This document shows, one piece after another, positions 28,804 to 38,546 of a stretch of DNA of 38,963 nt. The translations under genes and the position numbers were made by a program. This DNA is from an uncultured Flavobacteriales bacterium (lineage in GTDB: Bacteria; Bacteroidota; Bacteroidia; Flavobacteriales_G; Salibacteraceae), in assembly GCA_937899835.1 (NCBI GenBank), contig CALCCE010000019.1, forward strand, positions 1 through 38,963, read 5' to 3'. Below the pieces are notes generated by a model. The model was not told the DNA's origin, ran no database searches, and was given only the letters and a program-made list of their open reading frames with translations. The number at the start of each line of letters is the position of its first letter. The stretch's first letter is position 1.

Positions 28804-28937
28804 ATCGTTTCCTAATTGGACCCCGATTTTTTGTTGGGTTGCCTTTCGCAGGCGATTATTTTGGATTTTTCTGCGGGATTTCTTCTATTTAATAGCCTGT
28901 AAAGCGCTTCCCGTTCTTGAAACGAACCCTTTCTTAC

Positions 28938-29696
28938 ATGAAATTCATTCAAAGATTGGCCCTTGGCTTGGGCTTTTTGTTGTTGGTCTCCGGCTCAACT
29001 TTGCCAACGCCCGATTTCAAAGCCGATCAAATGCGTTACTCCCGGGTGCGCAATGCCTACCAGGAAAAAGAAGCAGGCGCCAAAGCCCTGCTGACCGCTC
29101 AACAACTCGATTATTCCAATTTCGATCTGTTGTTGCGGGCCTATAAAGCCGAGAAAGAACTGCAAGTATTTGCTAAAAAGAAATCGGAAAAAACCTACCA
29201 ACTGGTGCAGACCTACGATTTCTGTCTCTTATCCGGCGAATTGGGTCCCAAAAGGCGCCAGGGCGATTATCAGGTACCCGAAGGGTTTTACCACATTGAT
29301 CGTTTCAATCCGGCCAGTAATTTTCATTTGTCGTTGGGCATCAACTACCCCAATGTTTCCGATCGAATATTGGGCTACAAAGCCTCCCTTGGTGGAGATA
29401 TTTTCATTCACGGTGCTTGTGTTACGGTGGGATGCATTCCAATTACCAATGCGAAAATCAAGGAACTCTATATTCTGGCGGTTCAAGCAAAAAATGCGGG
29501 TCAGAAAAAAATCCCGGTGCTCATCTTTCCCAACAAGATGCGCCCTGCTCAAATGGAAGCGCTGAAAAAGGAAGCACCTCAACTGATGGATTTTTGGGTC
29601 AACCTCAAAGCTGGCCACGATTTGTTTGAGTCCAGCAAGCAGCTACCCGCTTTTCGGGTAACCGAAAAAGGCCACTATGTTTTTACGGGCTCGTGA
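28938..29696 (+). CDS. L,D-transpeptidase (YkuD) family protein
   Basis: The 252-aa product has a signal peptide (about 1-21) and a helical region (25-85). A YkuD/L,D-transpeptidase core follows (about 90-200) with QVPEGFYHI near 112-120 and the active-site motif HGACVTVGCIPI, holding His158 and nucleophile Cys166. It resembles the murein L,D-transpeptidase family protein YafK/ErfK group, which forms or breaks 3-3 crosslinks or attaches proteins to peptidoglycan. I chose ATG 28938 rather than TTG 28917 because it starts the signal peptide directly. It converges with pbpC, 3 bp apart. Confidence 0.9.
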   Translation: MKFIQRLALGLGFLLLVSGSTLPTPDFKADQMRYSRVRNAYQEKEAGAKALLTAQQLDYSNFDLLLRAYKAEKELQVFAKKKSEKTYQLVQTYDFCLLSGELGPKRRQGDYQVPEGFYHIDRFNPASNFHLSLGINYPNVSDRILGYKASLGGDIFIHGACVTVGCIPITNAKIKELYILAVQAKNAGQKKIPVLIFPNKMRPAQMEALKKEAPQLMDFWVNLKAGHDLFESSKQLPAFRVTEKGHYVFTGS

Positions 29697-29699
29697 GGC

Positions 29700-32090
29700 T
29701 TAGCGCTCCCGGTCCACCACTTGAAACCGTTTTTTCAAAGTATTCCCCGCCTCATCAATGGCTACCATCAGGTGCCAACCCGGTGCAGGAGCTACTCCCA
29801 TTTGGTGGTAGAGCCGCGTATCGCCCAGGTATTCGCCATCCAGGTGCCAGAAAACCGAAGCCTTAGGGTTGCGGTGGGCCAATTCAAACACCACACGGCC
29901 TACCTCGCCATTCAATTCCAAAGGCACAAACAATTGCGAAGCTTCCCGCGGGTAGATCCACTCCATGACGGCTTCTTCCTCTTGCGGGCCGCAGCCCGGT
30001 GCAAAAGACGGCAATCGGCGATAGTTCGGATCGCGCTGTTGATAATACCAGGCCTGCACCGGCGGAAGCACAAACCAATCCGCAGCCACCATCTCACTGG
30101 CAGGCACACAGTCACGCGATACGCGGTATCGGCCCTCCAAATCGGTATGGATGCGTTGGTGAAAAGGGCAAGCGGGTGCTTCTTTGGTACTGGCAGCTAC
30201 CCAAGTCGTATCCCGGTCGGGGCACCAGGGACTTGCCTGGTAGCCACTGCGTTGGCAAACCACCGTTTCCTGCAAATCATCGTAGGGCACCTCAAACCAT
30301 CGGCTTTCGGGCCGAAGCAGGCGAAAAAGATCGAACATCACCGGAGCAGCTGCGCCCACGCCGGTGAGCCCGGGCCGGCCTTCTCCATCGGCATTGCCTA
30401 CCCACACGCCCACTACGTGGCGGGGCGTGGTGCCAATTGCCCAGCCATCGCGAAAACCAAAACTGGTTCCGGTTTTCCAGGCCACTTGCCGCGAACCGGC
30501 AAAAGCTTGCCAGCCTTCGTCTTGCAGGGGCCGGGCAACCTCTTGCATTGCTTCGTACACCGTGTAAGTAGCGCCAGCGGTTAAAGGAGCGTTGGTAGCG
30601 TGGCCTTCTGCGGCTAAAGGTGGAGGAGCATCCGCTAATAAATAGTGTGGAGGGTGCCAATCTTCAGGAGCATACCGGGAATTCAATTCCCGAAAATGAT
30701 TCAGGCTGCGGCTCATGCTGGCATAAGTGCCGCACAACTCGTAGAGGCGGGCTTCGGCCCCACCCAAAATGAGGGAAAGGCCATAGTGATCGGCCGATCG
30801 GTTGAAAGTGGTAAACGGCAATTGCTGTAGCAGGTGGTGAAACTTTTCGGTGCCGAAATCACGCAGTAAGCGCACGGCAGGCACATTGAGCGATCGCGAG
30901 AGGGCCAGGTGAGCGGGCACCGCTCCATCGTAGCGCTGGTCAAAGTTTTTCGGAGTGTAACCTGAAATGTGGGTTGGAATATCCGGCACCAGCATGGCCG
31001 GCAACAAGTCGCCCTCCTGCATCAGTTGGGCATAGAGTAGGGGCTTTAGGATGCTACCCGTGCTGCGAGGGGCCATCGCGCAATCTACTTGCTGGCCCGT
31101 GACTTGCCCCGTTGGAGCCGCTACGTTGCCAATGTAAGCGCGGGTAGCGCCACTTTCTACCTCCAAAATCACAGCCGCCAGGTTGTAAATTTCGTTGGCC
31201 CGTAAGCGGGGCAGGTGTCGTTTCACAGCCTCTTGAGCACGGGCCTGCAATTCAATTTCTAAAGTAGTAGTGATGCGTTGGCCGTGGTGGCCATCTTTGG
31301 CTGAGCGGTCCAACAGGTGCGGTGCCAGTTGAGGCAGTGGTAAAGGTTTGCCGGGCAGGTCTTCCAGTTGTGAAAGGGCACAAGTAGCCGAATCGATATA
31401 ATCGTTTTGCCACAACCGATGGAGCAGTAAGTTGCGTTTCAACTTCAAACGCTCTTGGTTCCGGCCCGGAAAAATGAGCGAAGGTGCATTGGGCAACACC
31501 GCCAGCGTAGCCGATTCGGCCCAACTCAAGGTATGGGCCGGCCGGCCGTAGTACCGCCAGGCTGCTGCTTCCAGGCCCACCACATTTCCGCCAAAAGGCG
31601 CATTGGAGGCGTAGAGTTTTAGAATGTCTGCCTTGCGGTAGCTGCACTCCATGCGCAGTGCCTGCACCATTTCAATGATTTTTTCCCAATAGGTACGGGC
31701 TTGTCCCTTGCGTGCCATGCGAATCACTTGCATGCTGATGGTGCTGCCGCCTCGCACCACGCGTCCGTTTTGCAGGTTGCGTTTCAAAGCATTGAACAAC
31801 GACACCGGATTGATCCCCGGGTGGGAATAGAAATGCCGGTCTTCGAATTGCAGCAAGGCCACTTCAAATTTGTGGGGCACACTATCGGAAGGCGGAAAGC
31901 GCCATTGCCCATCGGAAGCAATACGGGCGCCCAAAAGCTCCCCTTGCCGGTCGAGCAAAACAGTGCAAGTCGGTTGGTCGAACAAAGGGTCGGGCAGGAA
32001 GTTCCAAAACCAAACGAAGAGCAAGAGCAGACCAAGCAAACGCCAACGCTGCCGGCGAAATCTTGCTTTCCAACGCTTACGTGTTTTCAT
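29700..32090 (-). CDS. pbpC: Penicillin-binding protein 1C (bifunctional glycosyltransferase/transpeptidase-type)
   Basis: The 796-aa product has one membrane anchor (residues 17-33) and a GT51 domain with catalytic Glu83 in FEDRHFYSHPG and RGGSTISMQVIRM at 113-125. The transpeptidase domain has active Ser346 in STGSILKP, SLN at 400-402 and KTGT at 539-542. A C-terminal BiPBP_C domain lies at about 690-790. All catalytic motifs are intact. It polymerises glycan strands on the periplasmic face. The A2M gene upstream on the same strand is the known partner of PBP1C; here a GldM-C-like gene lies between. The gap to that gene is 130 bp and contains a hairpin. Confidence 0.96.
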   Translation of the reverse strand: MKTRKRWKARFRRQRWRLLGLLLLFVWFWNFLPDPLFDQPTCTVLLDRQGELLGARIASDGQWRFPPSDSVPHKFEVALLQFEDRHFYSHPGINPVSLFNALKRNLQNGRVVRGGSTISMQVIRMARKGQARTYWEKIIEMVQALRMECSYRKADILKLYASNAPFGGNVVGLEAAAWRYYGRPAHTLSWAESATLAVLPNAPSLIFPGRNQERLKLKRNLLLHRLWQNDYIDSATCALSQLEDLPGKPLPLPQLAPHLLDRSAKDGHHGQRITTTLEIELQARAQEAVKRHLPRLRANEIYNLAAVILEVESGATRAYIGNVAAPTGQVTGQQVDCAMAPRSTGSILKPLLYAQLMQEGDLLPAMLVPDIPTHISGYTPKNFDQRYDGAVPAHLALSRSLNVPAVRLLRDFGTEKFHHLLQQLPFTTFNRSADHYGLSLILGGAEARLYELCGTYASMSRSLNHFRELNSRYAPEDWHPPHYLLADAPPPLAAEGHATNAPLTAGATYTVYEAMQEVARPLQDEGWQAFAGSRQVAWKTGTSFGFRDGWAIGTTPRHVVGVWVGNADGEGRPGLTGVGAAAPVMFDLFRLLRPESRWFEVPYDDLQETVVCQRSGYQASPWCPDRDTTWVAASTKEAPACPFHQRIHTDLEGRYRVSRDCVPASEMVAADWFVLPPVQAWYYQQRDPNYRRLPSFAPGCGPQEEEAVMEWIYPREASQLFVPLELNGEVGRVVFELAHRNPKASVFWHLDGEYLGDTRLYHQMGVAPAPGWHLMVAIDEAGNTLKKRFQVVDRER

Positions 32091-32174
32091 GCCTTAAGCC
32101 ACTACTACAGTTTCGGATTCGGGACAATGTTACTTTATAAAGAAAGCTGTAAAACTTCAATGCAACAGGATAAC

Positions 32175-32204
32175 ATGGCCCATCTTTACAGGCCATATTT
32201 TTTT
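32175..32204 (+). terminator. Hairpin with T-run between the GldM-C-like gene and pbpC, antisense orientation
   Basis: ATGGCC (32175-32180), a 10-base loop and GGCCAT (32191-32196) are followed by A and seven Ts on the plus strand. No plus-strand gene lies upstream, so as a terminator it would only stop antisense transcription into the A2M gene. On the minus strand the same stem lacks a T-run and may be a processing or attenuation structure before pbpC. Confidence 0.4.
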
Positions 32205-32220
32205 ATGAATTCGGGATTCA

Positions 32221-32943
32221 TCACCATTGCACCACCAAAAATATCGGTGCCAAGTTTCGGGTATACCCATCCGGACCGATGGCTTTCACTTCTGAGATAT
32301 CTATCCGATCGGGCTTTTGCTCGGCGATAAACTTTTTCATTTCCGTTGTAACCCGGTTGCCTCGTGTACCGTCAGTGTTGCTTGCCCGCATCACGGTAGG
32401 TTGGTTGTTTACCCAAGCCGTCATGGTAAATTCGGTGACGGTAAATTTCACGTCAAACTCGAAATACTCCATTTTGGCAATCACGCCTTGAGCGGCCCGT
32501 AGCTTAAAACCTTTGATGGTATCGGTATAGCAGCTGGCGGCAAAATAGGGAATTGGATTCGGGATGGGTTTTACCCGAAATTCATATTTCCCCGCTTCAA
32601 TGGGTGTTCCCTCCTGGAGAACATGGACGAAGATAACCGTTCGGCTGCCCCGGCCCGGTTTCACCAACAAGCGTTTGCCCGTGCCGCTAAAGGTGCAGTT
32701 GGAAGCACTGATCTGCAACAGCGAGTCGGGGTAGCCGGGCACGCTGATACTGACCGGATTGTCGATGCCGCGGTATAAAATGTTCATCTGAATCGCCCTG
32801 ATGAAAGGTTCGGGAGGTTGTACAGGTATTGTTGGTGGGGAAACTTCCAGTGAATCGGTCGTTGCGTCAACCGCAACGGTATCTTGCGCCTTAACTGCAA
32901 TGGTTAAAGCACAAAAACAGATAACAAGGGCGGTGCGCATCAT
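32221..32943 (-). CDS. Secreted stand-alone GldM C-terminal-domain-like protein
   Basis: The 240-aa product has a signal peptide (1-20, ending VKAQ) and a Pro-rich segment (30-45). Two domains follow that resemble the C-terminal part of GldM: NILYRGIDNPVSISVPGYPD at about 54-73, GTGKRLLVKPGRGSRTVIF, EFRVKPIPNPIPYFA, then GVIAKMEYFEFDVKFTVTEF and a closing KAIGPDGYTRNLAPIFLVV. In GldM these domains reach across the periplasm in the type IX secretion/gliding motor; the GldM membrane helices and helical domain are absent here. It overlaps the A2M stop by 4 bp (ATGA-type) and precedes pbpC, so all three are probably one operon. A structural or coupling role is inference. Confidence 0.85.
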   Translation of the reverse strand: MMRTALVICFCALTIAVKAQDTVAVDATTDSLEVSPPTIPVQPPEPFIRAIQMNILYRGIDNPVSISVPGYPDSLLQISASNCTFSGTGKRLLVKPGRGSRTVIFVHVLQEGTPIEAGKYEFRVKPIPNPIPYFAASCYTDTIKGFKLRAAQGVIAKMEYFEFDVKFTVTEFTMTAWVNNQPTVMRASNTDGTRGNRVTTEMKKFIAEQKPDRIDISEVKAIGPDGYTRNLAPIFLVVQW

Positions 32944-35900
32944 AGTGAAGCAGGATTAAAAGGAAGAACTTCCACCCATTGCCCAGGTTTTCGTGCATTG
33001 ATCGTGTTGTCGTACATAGATTCGCTGTAGACCGGTGCGAGGTAAAAGCGTCCCTGGTAGGCGGCATGCAGCAGCACCACGAAGGTGACGCTTTGCCGTG
33101 CCGGCACTTTGTAATAGGTATACACCCGGTCGTCTCTAAAATCCTGATAATCTGGCGTGGTGGTGCCTTGTAGCAAAGGATTTTCAAAACCGTCCATGCG
33201 CACGTTGCGGATTTCCCATCCCGAGGGAAATACCTGTTCCAGGGCCATTTCTTGATAATCGCCCCGCAAGCCAGGGTTGCTGATGATGACTTCAGCCATA
33301 AAATCAGTGCCTTGTTGCAATTGGCGAATGTCTATCGACTTCCCTTGCAGGTCCATGTAGGAAACCACCATCTTCAGGTCGTTTTCCGAGGCCGTGGTTT
33401 CGCCCACCGCCGGGATGCCTTCCATCACCAGGCGTACATAAAGCACGCCATCGCCTTCGTTTTCCACCTGCATCTTGCCACCGGTGGCCTGGTCCAAATC
33501 CCACTCCGTTTGGCTGATGGGCTGCTCGGTTTCAATCGATTCGTCATCATCGCCAAAGGTGTATTCGTATTCGATCGTCTTGGAGGTGTTTTGGCCGCCA
33601 ACAAATTTGGCCATCGCCAAAAGATTGTAGGCCGTGGTTTGGGTACTCAACCAGCGCTTGCCACTCAGGGCTTTCGCCACCAGATCGACAGAGGTTTTGG
33701 CCCGGGTGCGTTGTTCGAGCAGTACCATGGTTTCCAGAATCATGGCCTGGTCCCTATCGCTTGAACCGTAGGTGGAGCCAGGTGTGGTGTAAGTGCCTGT
33801 GGTTTCGCTTAGGTTTTCAATCATTTGATTGGCCACCTTGGGTTGCCCGGCCAGCGCGTAGGCAGCGGCCAATCGCCATTGAGCGATGATGCTCAATTTG
33901 GAGCGTTCTTTCAGGCGGTTCATGGCGCCCATTTCGGGTGAACCGCTCAAGGCCAGGGTATACAGCCGGTAAGCTTGGGTCAGTTCGTCCGATTCGGGGT
34001 TTCGGTAGCGGGGCGACCATTCCCGGGCAGCTTTTTTCTGGTATTTGCGCCATTTTTTCAACAAACTTGGTGGCACGTTGTAGCCTCGGTTTTTTGCTTC
34101 CAACAGAAAATGGCCGGCGTAGTTGCTTCCCCAGGAGTTGGACTCAGAGCTGCCCGGCCAGTAGGCCATGCCGCCATCAGGCGTTTGGAACGTGCGCAGT
34201 CGGGCAATCCCGGCGTTCACATTGCTGGTGATCTTTTGCTCCAAGGTGCTGTTCACCTCCATCAAATCGGCCAAAAACAACTGTGGAAATACCGATGAAG
34301 TGGTCTGCTCCACACATCCGTGTGGGTATTGCAGCAAGTATTTGAGGCGCTTGCCCAGGTTGATGGGCGGAATGCTGGACACTTCGAGCAGCAGCTTGTT
34401 GGTGCCGGCCACTCCCGGAGCCTTGAAGTCGCTGGTCCAGGTTTTGCCCGGTTCCACCAAAGCATCGATGACCTCCACCACCCGCGGGTTGGGGTTGCGC
34501 ACGTCAATCTCAATTTTATATTGAGCCGTTTCCGAGCCGCTTTTGGCGGTAACCGTCACTTCACCAATGCCCACTGCATTGGCCACCTGAAGGTCGAAAT
34601 CCACCACCTCGTCTCCGATGTCGGAAAAGGAAATGGATTTGCTGCTGCCACCTTGAGGGCTGAGAAAATTGTTGGTTTCAATTTTCAGGTCCACCTTCTT
34701 CACCTTCTTGTCCATGGCAAAAACCGTGACCGGAAGTTTCACTTGTTCACCAGGACCCACTACCCTTGGCAGGGTGGCCAACACCATCAAGGGCTTTTTC
34801 ACCGGCGTGGCTTTTTCCGTAGCTCCATAGGCAAGGCCGTTACCCGCCACCACCATCGTGCGCACCGAGCCGATGTATTCGGGCATTACAAAAGAGTGAA
34901 TGCCGGTGCGTCCACCGCCCAGTTCAAAGGGGCCGAGAAATTTCACCATGGGTTTGAAGCGGTTGGCTTTCTTGTTTTTATTGCCGCCCAACCCTTCGTC
35001 ACCGCCGAGGGCCAGCAGGCCGCTCACTTCGCCGGTGTAGGCGCCCATTACCAGGTCGTACAAGTCCCAGGTTTTCACTCCGAGGGCTTCCCGGGCATAA
35101 AAATGAGGCCAGGGGTCGGGAGTCGTAAAGCGGGTGAGGTCCAGCAACCCTTCGTCCACCACCGCAATGGTGTAGGTCATAGGGTAGCCGTTTTTCTCTT
35201 CCACTTCAATGCTCACTTCTTCACCAGGGGTGAGTTCGTCCGGCATTTTCAACACAGGTTCGAGGTGTGTTTCCGGATTTTCTACCTGAATGGGAGTGAT
35301 GCCATAGAGGCGTATCGGCAGGTCGTTTTCGGTCAGGTTGTGCGGCTGCACCAGGGTGATGTTCACAAATACGTTGGGCGCCATAGCCTCCGTCACCTCA
35401 AAATTGAACAAGGTGGTTTCTTCTGTGGCTTCCACCCAATAGGAGTCCACCACTTTCGAACCGTTTTCTACCGACACCAGGGCACGCCCCTGGCCACCAG
35501 TGGGAATGGAGAGGTGCACTTTTTCACCTACCTCGTAACGCTTTTTGTCGGTGCCAAAGGTGAGCATGGAAGCACCCCCTGGGTTTTCGCGTTTGCCACG
35601 TCCGGCCCAGCCGGGCCAATCTACAAAGACTACTTTGGCAGCGCTGTGGCCGCTTCGGGGATCTTCTACCCGCACAAGGTAGCGGCCCCAATCGGGGTAC
35701 TCCACTTTAAAGGTTGTTTCACCAAAACCGCCAGAGGTAGATACATTTTTGGAGAGCAGGCGAACGGTGCGCGTGCTGCTTCTAAAACCTGCCAGGTCTT
35801 CGCCCGATTGCGATTCCCACCACCAGCGCCAGGAGAGTTTGAACACCTCCACCCGCAGGCCGTTACGGCTCACCTTGTTACCGTCGGCATCGAGGGAAAT

Positions 35901-38546
35901 CAATTCTATTTTGTGGTCTTCATCGGTGAGCAACATGCCCCGCGCCTGATCGCCTTTGGGTGTTTTGAGGCCTACATAGCTCGAGTAGGGCTGAAAGGGA
36001 ATGGAAAAACGATCGATGCTAAAGTCTCCGCTTTCTTCGTAAACCCGGGTTACAAAGTTGGCCTTCAAAGTGCCTGGAGCTTCGTTTCCCGCATCCAGGT
36101 CCAGGTAAAGGTTGGCGTTGCCCTCAGCATCCAGCTTGCCTTCAAATACCGTTTGCTCGTCGGCAGAATAGCTACGGGTAGGGTCGTCAAACTGGTAGTC
36201 CTGGTATTTGCCAAAGTCGGTTTTACCTTTTACCAAAGTAACATTCACGTCTGCTTTGAGGTTACGGGCAGTGGCTCCGTGCAACCATTTGGCCGCCAGT
36301 TTTCCTGAGAGGGCACCGCCAGCACCCGTGAGGCGTTCGGTACCGAAATCAAGGTTGATTTTTAAACGGTTCGGTTTCACCGTCTCGATACGGAGGGGGC
36401 GACTGAAGGAAGCGCCACCTACCTGCACCTTTGCTGTCCAGTAACCGGTGGGAGCTTCTACCTCCGTTCGGGTGCGGAAATCGTAGAAACCGTTGAGGCC
36501 GTTGGAACGCACCAGGCGTTGTACGGTTTGTCCCGAAGGATTCACCAATTCCAAAGTCACCGGATGCGTTTCGGGCAACACCCCTTCTTTGTCTTCGAGC
36601 ACAAAAGTGAGGTAAAGCGAATCGCCCGGCCGCCAGACACCCCGTTCGCCGTAGAGGTAACCTTTCAATCCGCGTTGCACCTCCTGGCCACTCACGTCAA
36701 ATTTGCTCACCGAAAGGGCAGAACCATCATCGAGGCGCAGGTAGCCCCGTTGCTTTTCTTTGCGCGCCACCAACAAGTAGGGTTTGCTCTGTAGGGCTAC
36801 TACCGCCCGGCCATCGCCATCGGTGGTGGTCGAACCAATTTTCTGTTGTTGGTAGTTGAGCAAGTCAATCTCCACACCAGAAAGGGGAGCGGTGGTCACC
36901 AAATCGGTGACGACAATGTTCAATTCGTTGTTTTTTCCGGCCTTGGCAATGATGCCCAGGTCCGAAGCCAACACGTTGCGCGCCTCGCGGGTACGGCTGG
37001 TGATCATGTAATACGACGGGGTGCAAGGGTTGTCACGGTCGTCGTAGTTGTAATCCGAGTTGTAGTAGTAATCGTCGTAATAATAGTCCTCGTAATAATC
37101 CCAGGAAGAAGTCTCGTCCCACGATTCGCTGTCCCAATCGTCTGCTACTTCGGCGAGTTCGTTTTCTGTTTCATCCGCTTCACCTTCGCAAGGGTAGAGG
37201 CTGTGTTTTTGGGCAAAGCTGAGTTCTATCCGGTAAATGGCTCCGGGTTCCGTTTCCATCAATTTGGAAAGATCGATGCTGAACGCGTTCCACTGGCTCA
37301 GGTCGGCGGCTTGTTGCGAAAGGGAGATTTCCTCGCGGTGAACGATGCGACCCACGCGTTTCATTTCTCGCTTGCCATCCAGTTGATTCACCTGTAGAAA
37401 CTGGGCTACATTGTCTTCAAACACTTGAATGACCTTCACTTGCACCCCGCTGAGGTTCACTGCCCGGAAGGGAAAAATGAGGCCGTTGGAACTGGGCAAA
37501 ATCACCCCGTCACCCACCAATTCAATGGCCGGTTTCAGGTCTTGAAAGGTGACCGAGGCACTGGTGCCTTGTTCGAATTTGTAGCCGAGAATGTTTTCGA
37601 TGCCCTCGTTGATCTCCACCTTTACCGTACCACTTTGACGCTCCGAAGGGTAGACCCGGATCTCGTTGTCTTCTACCAACAGGCGGGCAGCCTGACCGTT
37701 GGCCATGCGCACCAGCCCCCGCAGGTTTTGCCGTTCGGCCAGTGGGTCGGAAAAAACCAGGGCCACGTATTGTTCCGGGTATTGAATCACGCGAGTGGTC
37801 ATCAGTCGAAAATCGCCCAGGGCTGGAATTTCTACTTTCCTTTCTCCCTTCGTTTCGTCCGCTCCGATCGGATCACCGTTCCAGCTTACTTCCACTTCAC
37901 TGGCATCTTCACCCCGTTGGATGCTGTCAATCTGAAAGCGGTGTTGGCGTTGGTTTACATCGTGCTCCCACCTTACTTGCAAGTTGCGTCCGTTTTGCCG
38001 GGCTTGCAACACTTCATTCACGGTTTTGTCCTCGGCCACATCGGCGGTGTTGATGGTGCCTTGCAACTGGTACCATTCAAGGTTGCGTTTCTCGTAGGTT
38101 TTGAGTCCTAAAAGTTCCAGTGCCAGGTTTTGCTGGATGATCTGGAATTGAAATTCGAACGTTTCCAAGGCTTCGGTGACCGTGAACAACTCTTCCAGAA
38201 AAAAACGCGCACCGTAGGTTTCGCCAGAGCGTAAACGTTCTTCAGGTCGAAATTCGATGGTGCGTGGGTCTACCCACCAGGCCTCTCCGTCGATGCCCGG
38301 GTCAAAATCGAATAAGTCGTCGTCGATCGGTTGGTCCGTTTGCAGCTCACCCGAATACGGCTCTGCCAACCGAATGCGAATAATCGACTCGCCCGATATC
38401 ACTCCAGAGGTAAACGCCGAAATGTAGGCACTAAAGGCCGGGTTGATTTTGGGAGGCATTTTATCGCCGGAACAAGTTACCAGCAACAAGCCGCACAACA
38501 CTGCGGCCAATGTTTGTAATCGATGAGTGCGCAACCAGGAAACCAT
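32940..38546 (-). CDS. Bacterial alpha-2-macroglobulin lipoprotein (thioester type)
   Basis: The 1868-aa precursor has a lipoprotein signal with LVTC (lipidated Cys25, then Ser, Gly, Asp). Several MG-type beta domains follow (A2M_N near 620-720, MG/A2M near 1180-1290), then the thioester motif GCVEQ (Cys1411 to Gln1414) in an alpha-alpha toroid (about 1390-1680) and a C-terminal domain. The intact thioester implies covalent trapping of attacking proteases, as in E. coli YfhM, which pairs with PBP1C. Residues about 470-508 are an acidic Tyr/Asp-rich insert (YYEDYYYDDYYYNSDY). The downstream GldM-C-like gene and pbpC follow on the same strand. Probable location: periplasmic, tethered to a membrane. 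Confidence 0.95.
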   Translation of the reverse strand: MVSWLRTHRLQTLAAVLCGLLLVTCSGDKMPPKINPAFSAYISAFTSGVISGESIIRIRLAEPYSGELQTDQPIDDDLFDFDPGIDGEAWWVDPRTIEFRPEERLRSGETYGARFFLEELFTVTEALETFEFQFQIIQQNLALELLGLKTYEKRNLEWYQLQGTINTADVAEDKTVNEVLQARQNGRNLQVRWEHDVNQRQHRFQIDSIQRGEDASEVEVSWNGDPIGADETKGERKVEIPALGDFRLMTTRVIQYPEQYVALVFSDPLAERQNLRGLVRMANGQAARLLVEDNEIRVYPSERQSGTVKVEINEGIENILGYKFEQGTSASVTFQDLKPAIELVGDGVILPSSNGLIFPFRAVNLSGVQVKVIQVFEDNVAQFLQVNQLDGKREMKRVGRIVHREEISLSQQAADLSQWNAFSIDLSKLMETEPGAIYRIELSFAQKHSLYPCEGEADETENELAEVADDWDSESWDETSSWDYYEDYYYDDYYYNSDYNYDDRDNPCTPSYYMITSRTREARNVLASDLGIIAKAGKNNELNIVVTDLVTTAPLSGVEIDLLNYQQQKIGSTTTDGDGRAVVALQSKPYLLVARKEKQRGYLRLDDGSALSVSKFDVSGQEVQRGLKGYLYGERGVWRPGDSLYLTFVLEDKEGVLPETHPVTLELVNPSGQTVQRLVRSNGLNGFYDFRTRTEVEAPTGYWTAKVQVGGASFSRPLRIETVKPNRLKINLDFGTERLTGAGGALSGKLAAKWLHGATARNLKADVNVTLVKGKTDFGKYQDYQFDDPTRSYSADEQTVFEGKLDAEGNANLYLDLDAGNEAPGTLKANFVTRVYEESGDFSIDRFSIPFQPYSSYVGLKTPKGDQARGMLLTDEDHKIELISLDADGNKVSRNGLRVEVFKLSWRWWWESQSGEDLAGFRSSTRTVRLLSKNVSTSGGFGETTFKVEYPDWGRYLVRVEDPRSGHSAAKVVFVDWPGWAGRGKRENPGGASMLTFGTDKKRYEVGEKVHLSIPTGGQGRALVSVENGSKVVDSYWVEATEETTLFNFEVTEAMAPNVFVNITLVQPHNLTENDLPIRLYGITPIQVENPETHLEPVLKMPDELTPGEEVSIEVEEKNGYPMTYTIAVVDEGLLDLTRFTTPDPWPHFYAREALGVKTWDLYDLVMGAYTGEVSGLLALGGDEGLGGNKNKKANRFKPMVKFLGPFELGGGRTGIHSFVMPEYIGSVRTMVVAGNGLAYGATEKATPVKKPLMVLATLPRVVGPGEQVKLPVTVFAMDKKVKKVDLKIETNNFLSPQGGSSKSISFSDIGDEVVDFDLQVANAVGIGEVTVTAKSGSETAQYKIEIDVRNPNPRVVEVIDALVEPGKTWTSDFKAPGVAGTNKLLLEVSSIPPINLGKRLKYLLQYPHGCVEQTTSSVFPQLFLADLMEVNSTLEQKITSNVNAGIARLRTFQTPDGGMAYWPGSSESNSWGSNYAGHFLLEAKNRGYNVPPSLLKKWRKYQKKAAREWSPRYRNPESDELTQAYRLYTLALSGSPEMGAMNRLKERSKLSIIAQWRLAAAYALAGQPKVANQMIENLSETTGTYTTPGSTYGSSDRDQAMILETMVLLEQRTRAKTSVDLVAKALSGKRWLSTQTTAYNLLAMAKFVGGQNTSKTIEYEYTFGDDDESIETEQPISQTEWDLDQATGGKMQVENEGDGVLYVRLVMEGIPAVGETTASENDLKMVVSYMDLQGKSIDIRQLQQGTDFMAEVIISNPGLRGDYQEMALEQVFPSGWEIRNVRMDGFENPLLQGTTTPDYQDFRDDRVYTYYKVPARQSVTFVVLLHAAYQGRFYLAPVYSESMYDNTINARKPGQWVEVLPFNPASL

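Follow-up and report, generated by a model that had tools for sequence, protein, structure and literature searches.

Here, we describe a locus at which the genes for a bacterial alpha-2-macroglobulin (A2M), a 240-residue protein of the GldM/PorM type and PBP1C follow one another on the minus strand of the window, i.e., the whole 38,963-nucleotide stretch of DNA from an uncultured Flavobacteriales bacterium that was analysed (Table 1). The ATG of the middle gene overlaps the A2M stop codon by 4 bp (ATGA; junction ...CACTATGATG...). Because a second ATG immediately follows the first, translation may in fact begin one codon further on. The overlap involves only these two genes, and pbpC is set off by 130 bp. 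A preliminary description had read the three genes, the overlap and an intact pbpC from the sequence, and the ORF list, the profile matches and the motifs bear it out on all of these points.

Table 1. Features at the macroglobulin locus; positions are those of the window.
Feature	Position	Strand	Basis or remark
A2M, 1868 aa	32940..38546	minus	ORF list, Pfam, motif reading
GCVEQ thioester of A2M	34319-34305	minus	residue 1410
Low-complexity run in A2M	37038-37142		residues 469-503
Predicted exported GldM D3-D4 protein, 240 aa	32221..32943	minus	ORF list, Pfam, predicted fold
Gap between GldM-C gene and pbpC, 130 bp	32091..32220	minus
pbpC (penicillin-binding protein 1C), 796 aa	29700..32090	minus	Pfam, TIGR02073, motifs present
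YkuD-type L,D-transpeptidase gene	28917-29696

The A2M has Pfam matches above the cut-off to bMG3, MG2, bMG5, bMG6, BRD, A2M, TED and bMG10. Its MG domains, its bait region and a thioester motif of the CxEQ form (GCVEQ) make it a type I bacterial A2M. An LLVTC-S lipobox, read by eye, makes the A2M a predicted lipoprotein. Its low-complexity run consists of Asp, Tyr, Trp and Ser. The pbpC product matches Transgly, Transpeptidase and BiPBP_C in Pfam, belongs to PBP1C by TIGR02073 (641 bits, cut-off 494.2) and carries EDRHF at 83, STGSILKP at 343, SRSLN at 398 and KTGTS at 539. The L,D-transpeptidase gene is convergent with pbpC.

In the bacterial A2M/PBP1C pair, as in Escherichia coli YfhM-PbpC, PBP1C likewise comes after a thioester A2M on the same strand, and a passage in PMC4498604 describes A2M as frequently paired with PBP1C in bacteria. 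What differs here is the inserted GldM-type gene. On the coding strand of the gap before pbpC, neither a sigma-70-type promoter scan nor a terminator scan gave a match, and the promoter scan gave none between 31950 and 33100. The consensus used was that of sigma-70, which is not the Bacteroidota type of promoter, so that the scan by itself settles nothing. Together with the 4-bp overlap, the promoter-scan result is only suggestive of a putative A2M-gldMC-pbpC operon.

Identity and condition of the 240-residue protein

Several lines of evidence place the 240-residue protein in the GldM/PorM C-terminal domain family, as the preliminary description had proposed. In Pfam, both domains score above the cut-off: GldM_3rd matches residues 48-125 (1.3e-15; 57.8 bits, cut-off 25.2) and GldM_4th residues 144-234 (5.9e-13; 49.9 bits, cut-off 24.6). 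Among sequences of solved structures, the closest are those of PorM and GldM. An AlphaFold2 model built on 45 alignment rows has a mean pLDDT of 86.2 and a pTM of 0.69, with residues 1-50 at a pLDDT of about 52-61. A Foldseek search with this model gave PorM 315-516 as the top match (E 7.4e-15) and PorM or GldM chains as the first seven matches, and superposition on PorM 315-516 gave Z 17.1 with an rmsd of 2.5 over 181 residues, the first other entry following at Z 8.1. The protein does not qualify as a full GldM motor protein: it reaches 89.8 bits against a TIGR03517 cut-off of 180, and this match spans only profile positions 312-518 of 524, as expected because it is a fragment. The N-terminus reads by eye as a Sec signal peptide of about residues 1-19, ending near VKA-QD, so that the layout is signal peptide, linker, GldM_3rd and GldM_4th. 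We are thus almost certain that the gene, directly behind A2M and with an overlapping start, encodes the D3-D4 half of a GldM/PorM-type protein with a Sec-like signal and without the motor helix, D1 and D2.

The 240-residue protein has its D3-D4 domains, its sequence motifs and its predicted fold in common with GldM/PorM proteins (TIGR03517; Pfam GldM_3rd, GldM_4th). However, it lacks the N-terminal part of the profile and has its own signal-like N-terminus, its gene lies outside any gldKLMN cluster, its D4 turn is altered and the loop that follows is longer. Of 38 columns that are near-invariant in canonical GldM, 37 are filled and 27 of these 37 keep the consensus residue; those that differ are found at what was the D2-D3 border (residues 42-51), at residues 55 and 136 and in D4. 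The codon usage of the gene correlates with that of the other genes at r 0.75, a value shared by two of the eight other genes compared and exceeded by the remaining six; GC3 is 0.568, and both measures are at the low end but within the range of the genes compared. With its open frame, retained core and codon usage, the gene is well formed and shows no sign of decay.

The host genome (6.9 Mb in 307 contigs, 98% complete) encodes a gldK-gldL-gldM-gldN cluster on contig C49, with all four products above the NCBIfam cut-offs. The GldM of this cluster is the closest to the 240-residue protein in the genome (42% identity); a GldM encoded on contig C250 is 32% identical. This second, full-length gldM (L055, 8921-10579) has no gldK, gldL or gldN in the surrounding 20 kb by tblastn with the four C49 proteins.

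Gene order and free GldM tails across genomes

The preliminary description had further suggested that, in Bacteroidota, the GldM-type protein may belong to the A2M/PBP1C system as its third component. In an order-level sample of 42 genomes, bMG6 was found in 15, and 17 A2M-pbpC pairs, including both pairs of the host genome, were readable. In 13 of these 17, the two genes overlap or are at most 37 bp apart, with the genes of L070 and L077 broken into several frames and some pairs running off contig ends. The remaining pairs are two with gaps of 338-376 bp (L065 and L078), the one on host contig C138 and the locus under study. The gaps in L065 and L078 gave no GldM-C remnant in the three coding-strand frames and no profile match. 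On C138 (L064), A2M and pbpC lie 7.5 kb apart without a GldM piece; the interval holds mostly opposite-strand genes, including those for a LytTR regulator and a propeller sensor kinase.

A draw of 396 genomes at the level of the class, with bMG6 in 205 and PBP1C in 213, gave 54 nearby pairs among the matches listed, six of them common to the order-level set. Among these listed pairs, 31 leave no room for an insert and 23 are wider. The wider ones comprise the locus under study, C138 and G003, which had already been read, 19 newly examined pairs and G292, which cannot hold a 723-bp gene because its spacing is too small. A D3-D4 profile run on the ORFs of L064-L101 gave no match at E up to 10; the control for this profile is weak in that the known cases it recovered had been used to build it, one further match in L061 excepted. 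Not counted as pairs were G230, G083, G302, G253, G294 and G331, in which the genes are far apart on the same contig, the reversed pair in G384 (L101, no D3-D4 match) and the A2M-only loci L076 and L081. Altogether, the GldM piece occurs in one of 65 A2M-pbpC pairs (order-level sample plus class-level draw, among the matches listed) and is absent from the other 64. At this sampling the order A2M, GldM-C, pbpC is thus unique to this genome, and a conserved third component is rejected. Of the earlier reading, the GldM-C identity stands and the general role in Bacteroidota does not.

In quick trees of A2M and pbpC, from which L077 and rows under half length were omitted, the studied locus groups with L074, L069, L075 and L065 (98 and 97 SH-aLRT). 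All four relatives are without the GldM piece, their genes being adjacent in L074, L069 and L075 and separated by 376 bp in L065. The closest locus in the A2M tree is L076 (88), on a contig that breaks off before pbpC. The simplest reading is that the piece was gained on this branch rather than lost by all relatives; it would then be an acquisition of a single lineage and not a part that the proposed cell-envelope defence pair has in general.

Elsewhere, various genes occupy the junction between A2M and pbpC, so that the mere presence of an extra gene there does not point to a function. A LytTR regulator and a Reg_prop/Y_Y_Y/His_kinase sensor are encoded on the opposite strand in L064 (6053-9915, C138), L082-L086 and L095, an assignment based on Pfam for the C138 pair and the L095 sensor and on length and sequence likeness for the other loci; they are a candidate regulator of A2M/pbpC. 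Other junction genes encode DUF4440 proteins (L093, L100), YoeB (L088) and ParE (L092), and the L087 junction has a weak match to an IS200 transposase, below the cut-off. A search for mobile-element borders at the studied locus gave no direct repeats of 14 or more bases in 31800-33300. In a search of mostly non-subscription papers, we found nothing linking A2M with GldM or type IX secretion; the sole paper listed with both terms (PMC9437196) is an unrelated one on radiology. Literature on A2M with PBP1C/PbpC, on GldM fragments and on GldM paralogues, again mostly non-subscription, gave nothing on this arrangement.

D3-D4 proteins that are not part of a full GldM also occur elsewhere. A search of genomes G000-G440 with the 240-residue query, in which weaker copies are missed, gave at least seven further copies in at least six genomes among the matches listed (L052, L053, L060, two in L061, L063 and L103). 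All seven have GldM_3rd and GldM_4th above the cut-off and, by eye, a signal-like or lipobox-like N-terminus. The searches gave no other genome of the host's genus. In the named genomes, a scan gave only full GldM-sized frames or contig-end pieces. By tblastn, the six loci with free copies have no A2M or PBP1C in the DNA examined, L052 and L053 being no more than 2.3 kb from the end of a contig. In L052 (1423-2424) and L053 (566-1594), D3-D4 is fused to a tyrosine-phosphatase-like domain, which is below the Pfam cut-off. L061 (1950-2579, 8096-9463) holds two tandem D3-D4 genes with lipoprotein-like products, a third gene, also lipoprotein-like, with GldM_2nd and GldM_3rd, and an nSTAND1 gene. 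The D3-D4 genes of L063 (862-2841, 8519-9205) and L103 (5480-8152) may be orthologues because both are near dxs (DXP synthase). Three candidates were rejected as free forms: L062 (G047), by eye a gldM split in two within a gldK-L-M-N cluster, and L102 and L104, gldM pieces cut by contig ends.

A tree of 45 sequences included six free forms and left out L053 and L103. The tree rejects a common origin for the free forms (p-AU 0.0012, at a cost of 40 log units), with some doubt left by the long branches, and supported branches force at least two changes. The free forms are also more clustered than chance, only 2 of 500 shuffles being as low. The 240-residue protein has a branch of 1.88 and no supported nearest group. 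As a side finding of wider reach, the GldM tail is thus encoded as a free protein in several Bacteroidota. That such proteins do not form one clade is a warning against annotating their genes as GldM, and they are natural D3-D4 fragments for ring-binding tests.

Possible roles of the GldM-type protein

We tentatively favour, at somewhat less than even chances, an accessory protein made with this A2M. Translation coupling would cause the 240-residue protein to be made beside A2M, and it would be exported to the same compartment; its two beta-sandwich domains could then bind or stabilise A2M, much like the small Mag proteins with MagD. Docking to the GldK/GldN ring through D4 would be a possible extension of this role rather than the default. 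What speaks for this role is that the gene overlaps A2M, that its product has a signal-like N-terminus and a retained core, and that MagD offers a precedent. In the Pseudomonas aeruginosa mag operon (MagA-F around MagD), smaller envelope proteins are likewise encoded with an A2M, and MagA, MagB and MagF bind MagD, as stated in an excerpt of PMC5764988 that names no GldM-type partner in this operon. However, MagD is a type II A2M without a thioester while the A2M here has one; thus, the precedent is an analogy only. Moreover, the single occurrence among the pairs compared (one of 65, among the matches listed) leaves a working link to A2M without support from conservation, and the second A2M/pbpC of the host, which has no GldM piece, argues that A2M does not generally need one.

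The same rarity suits a reading that we hold to be only slightly less likely, namely that a free D3-D4 gene landed at a junction open to insertions and either has its own unrelated job or is on its way out. The YoeB and ParE genes, the DUF4440 genes and the below-cut-off transposase match at this junction elsewhere, as well as the other surroundings of free D3-D4 genes, are consistent with such a passenger; by contrast, the 4-bp overlap with A2M, the apparent signal peptide and the retained core residues suggest a used and coupled gene. It is unlikely that the protein instead docks to the GldN/GldK ring via D4 and in that way brings A2M to the type IX machine or regulates that machine. Excerpts from the literature report that, in a bacterial two-hybrid assay, D4 of PorM interacts with PorN by itself (PMC5790014) and that PorM S460C cross-links to PorN A241C (PMC12421860), and the host genome has the C49 cluster. 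However, at the D4 turn, 43 of 45 aligned rows have a glycine where the 240-residue protein has Asn180; this residue comes immediately after Asn179, with which PorM S460 aligns by manual count. The next loop carries an insertion of six residues compared to the C49 GldM. These changes in the turn and the loop weaken the case for ring docking. In addition, the excerpt of PMC5790014 describes PorK binding as requiring D2-D3 with D4, and the 240-residue protein is without D2; nor does A2M co-occur with D3-D4 at the free loci examined. A broader version, in which the GldM tail would be a portable exported docking module, released several times in Bacteroidota (alone, as a lipoprotein or in the phosphatase-like fusion), that takes unrelated proteins of the envelope to the GldN/GldK ring and at this locus recruits A2M to guard the type IX site, strikes us as quite improbable. 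Finally, a GldM fragment mis-joined to the A2M locus during assembly is conceivable in a genome of 307 contigs, but we consider it highly improbable: the start of the ORF falls precisely on the A2M stop codon and its product has a signal-like N-terminus of its own, the stretch around it is free of direct repeats as noted above, and a false join would lack a near-identical repeat, given that the closest GldM in the genome shares only 42% protein identity.

Altogether, we regard the locus as a modest variant of the known A2M/PBP1C gene pair; a general third component is not supported. If the favoured accessory protein does bind A2M, or if it binds the type IX ring, then protease trapping would be tied to the secretion motor of Bacteroidota, and the GldM tail would work outside the motor.
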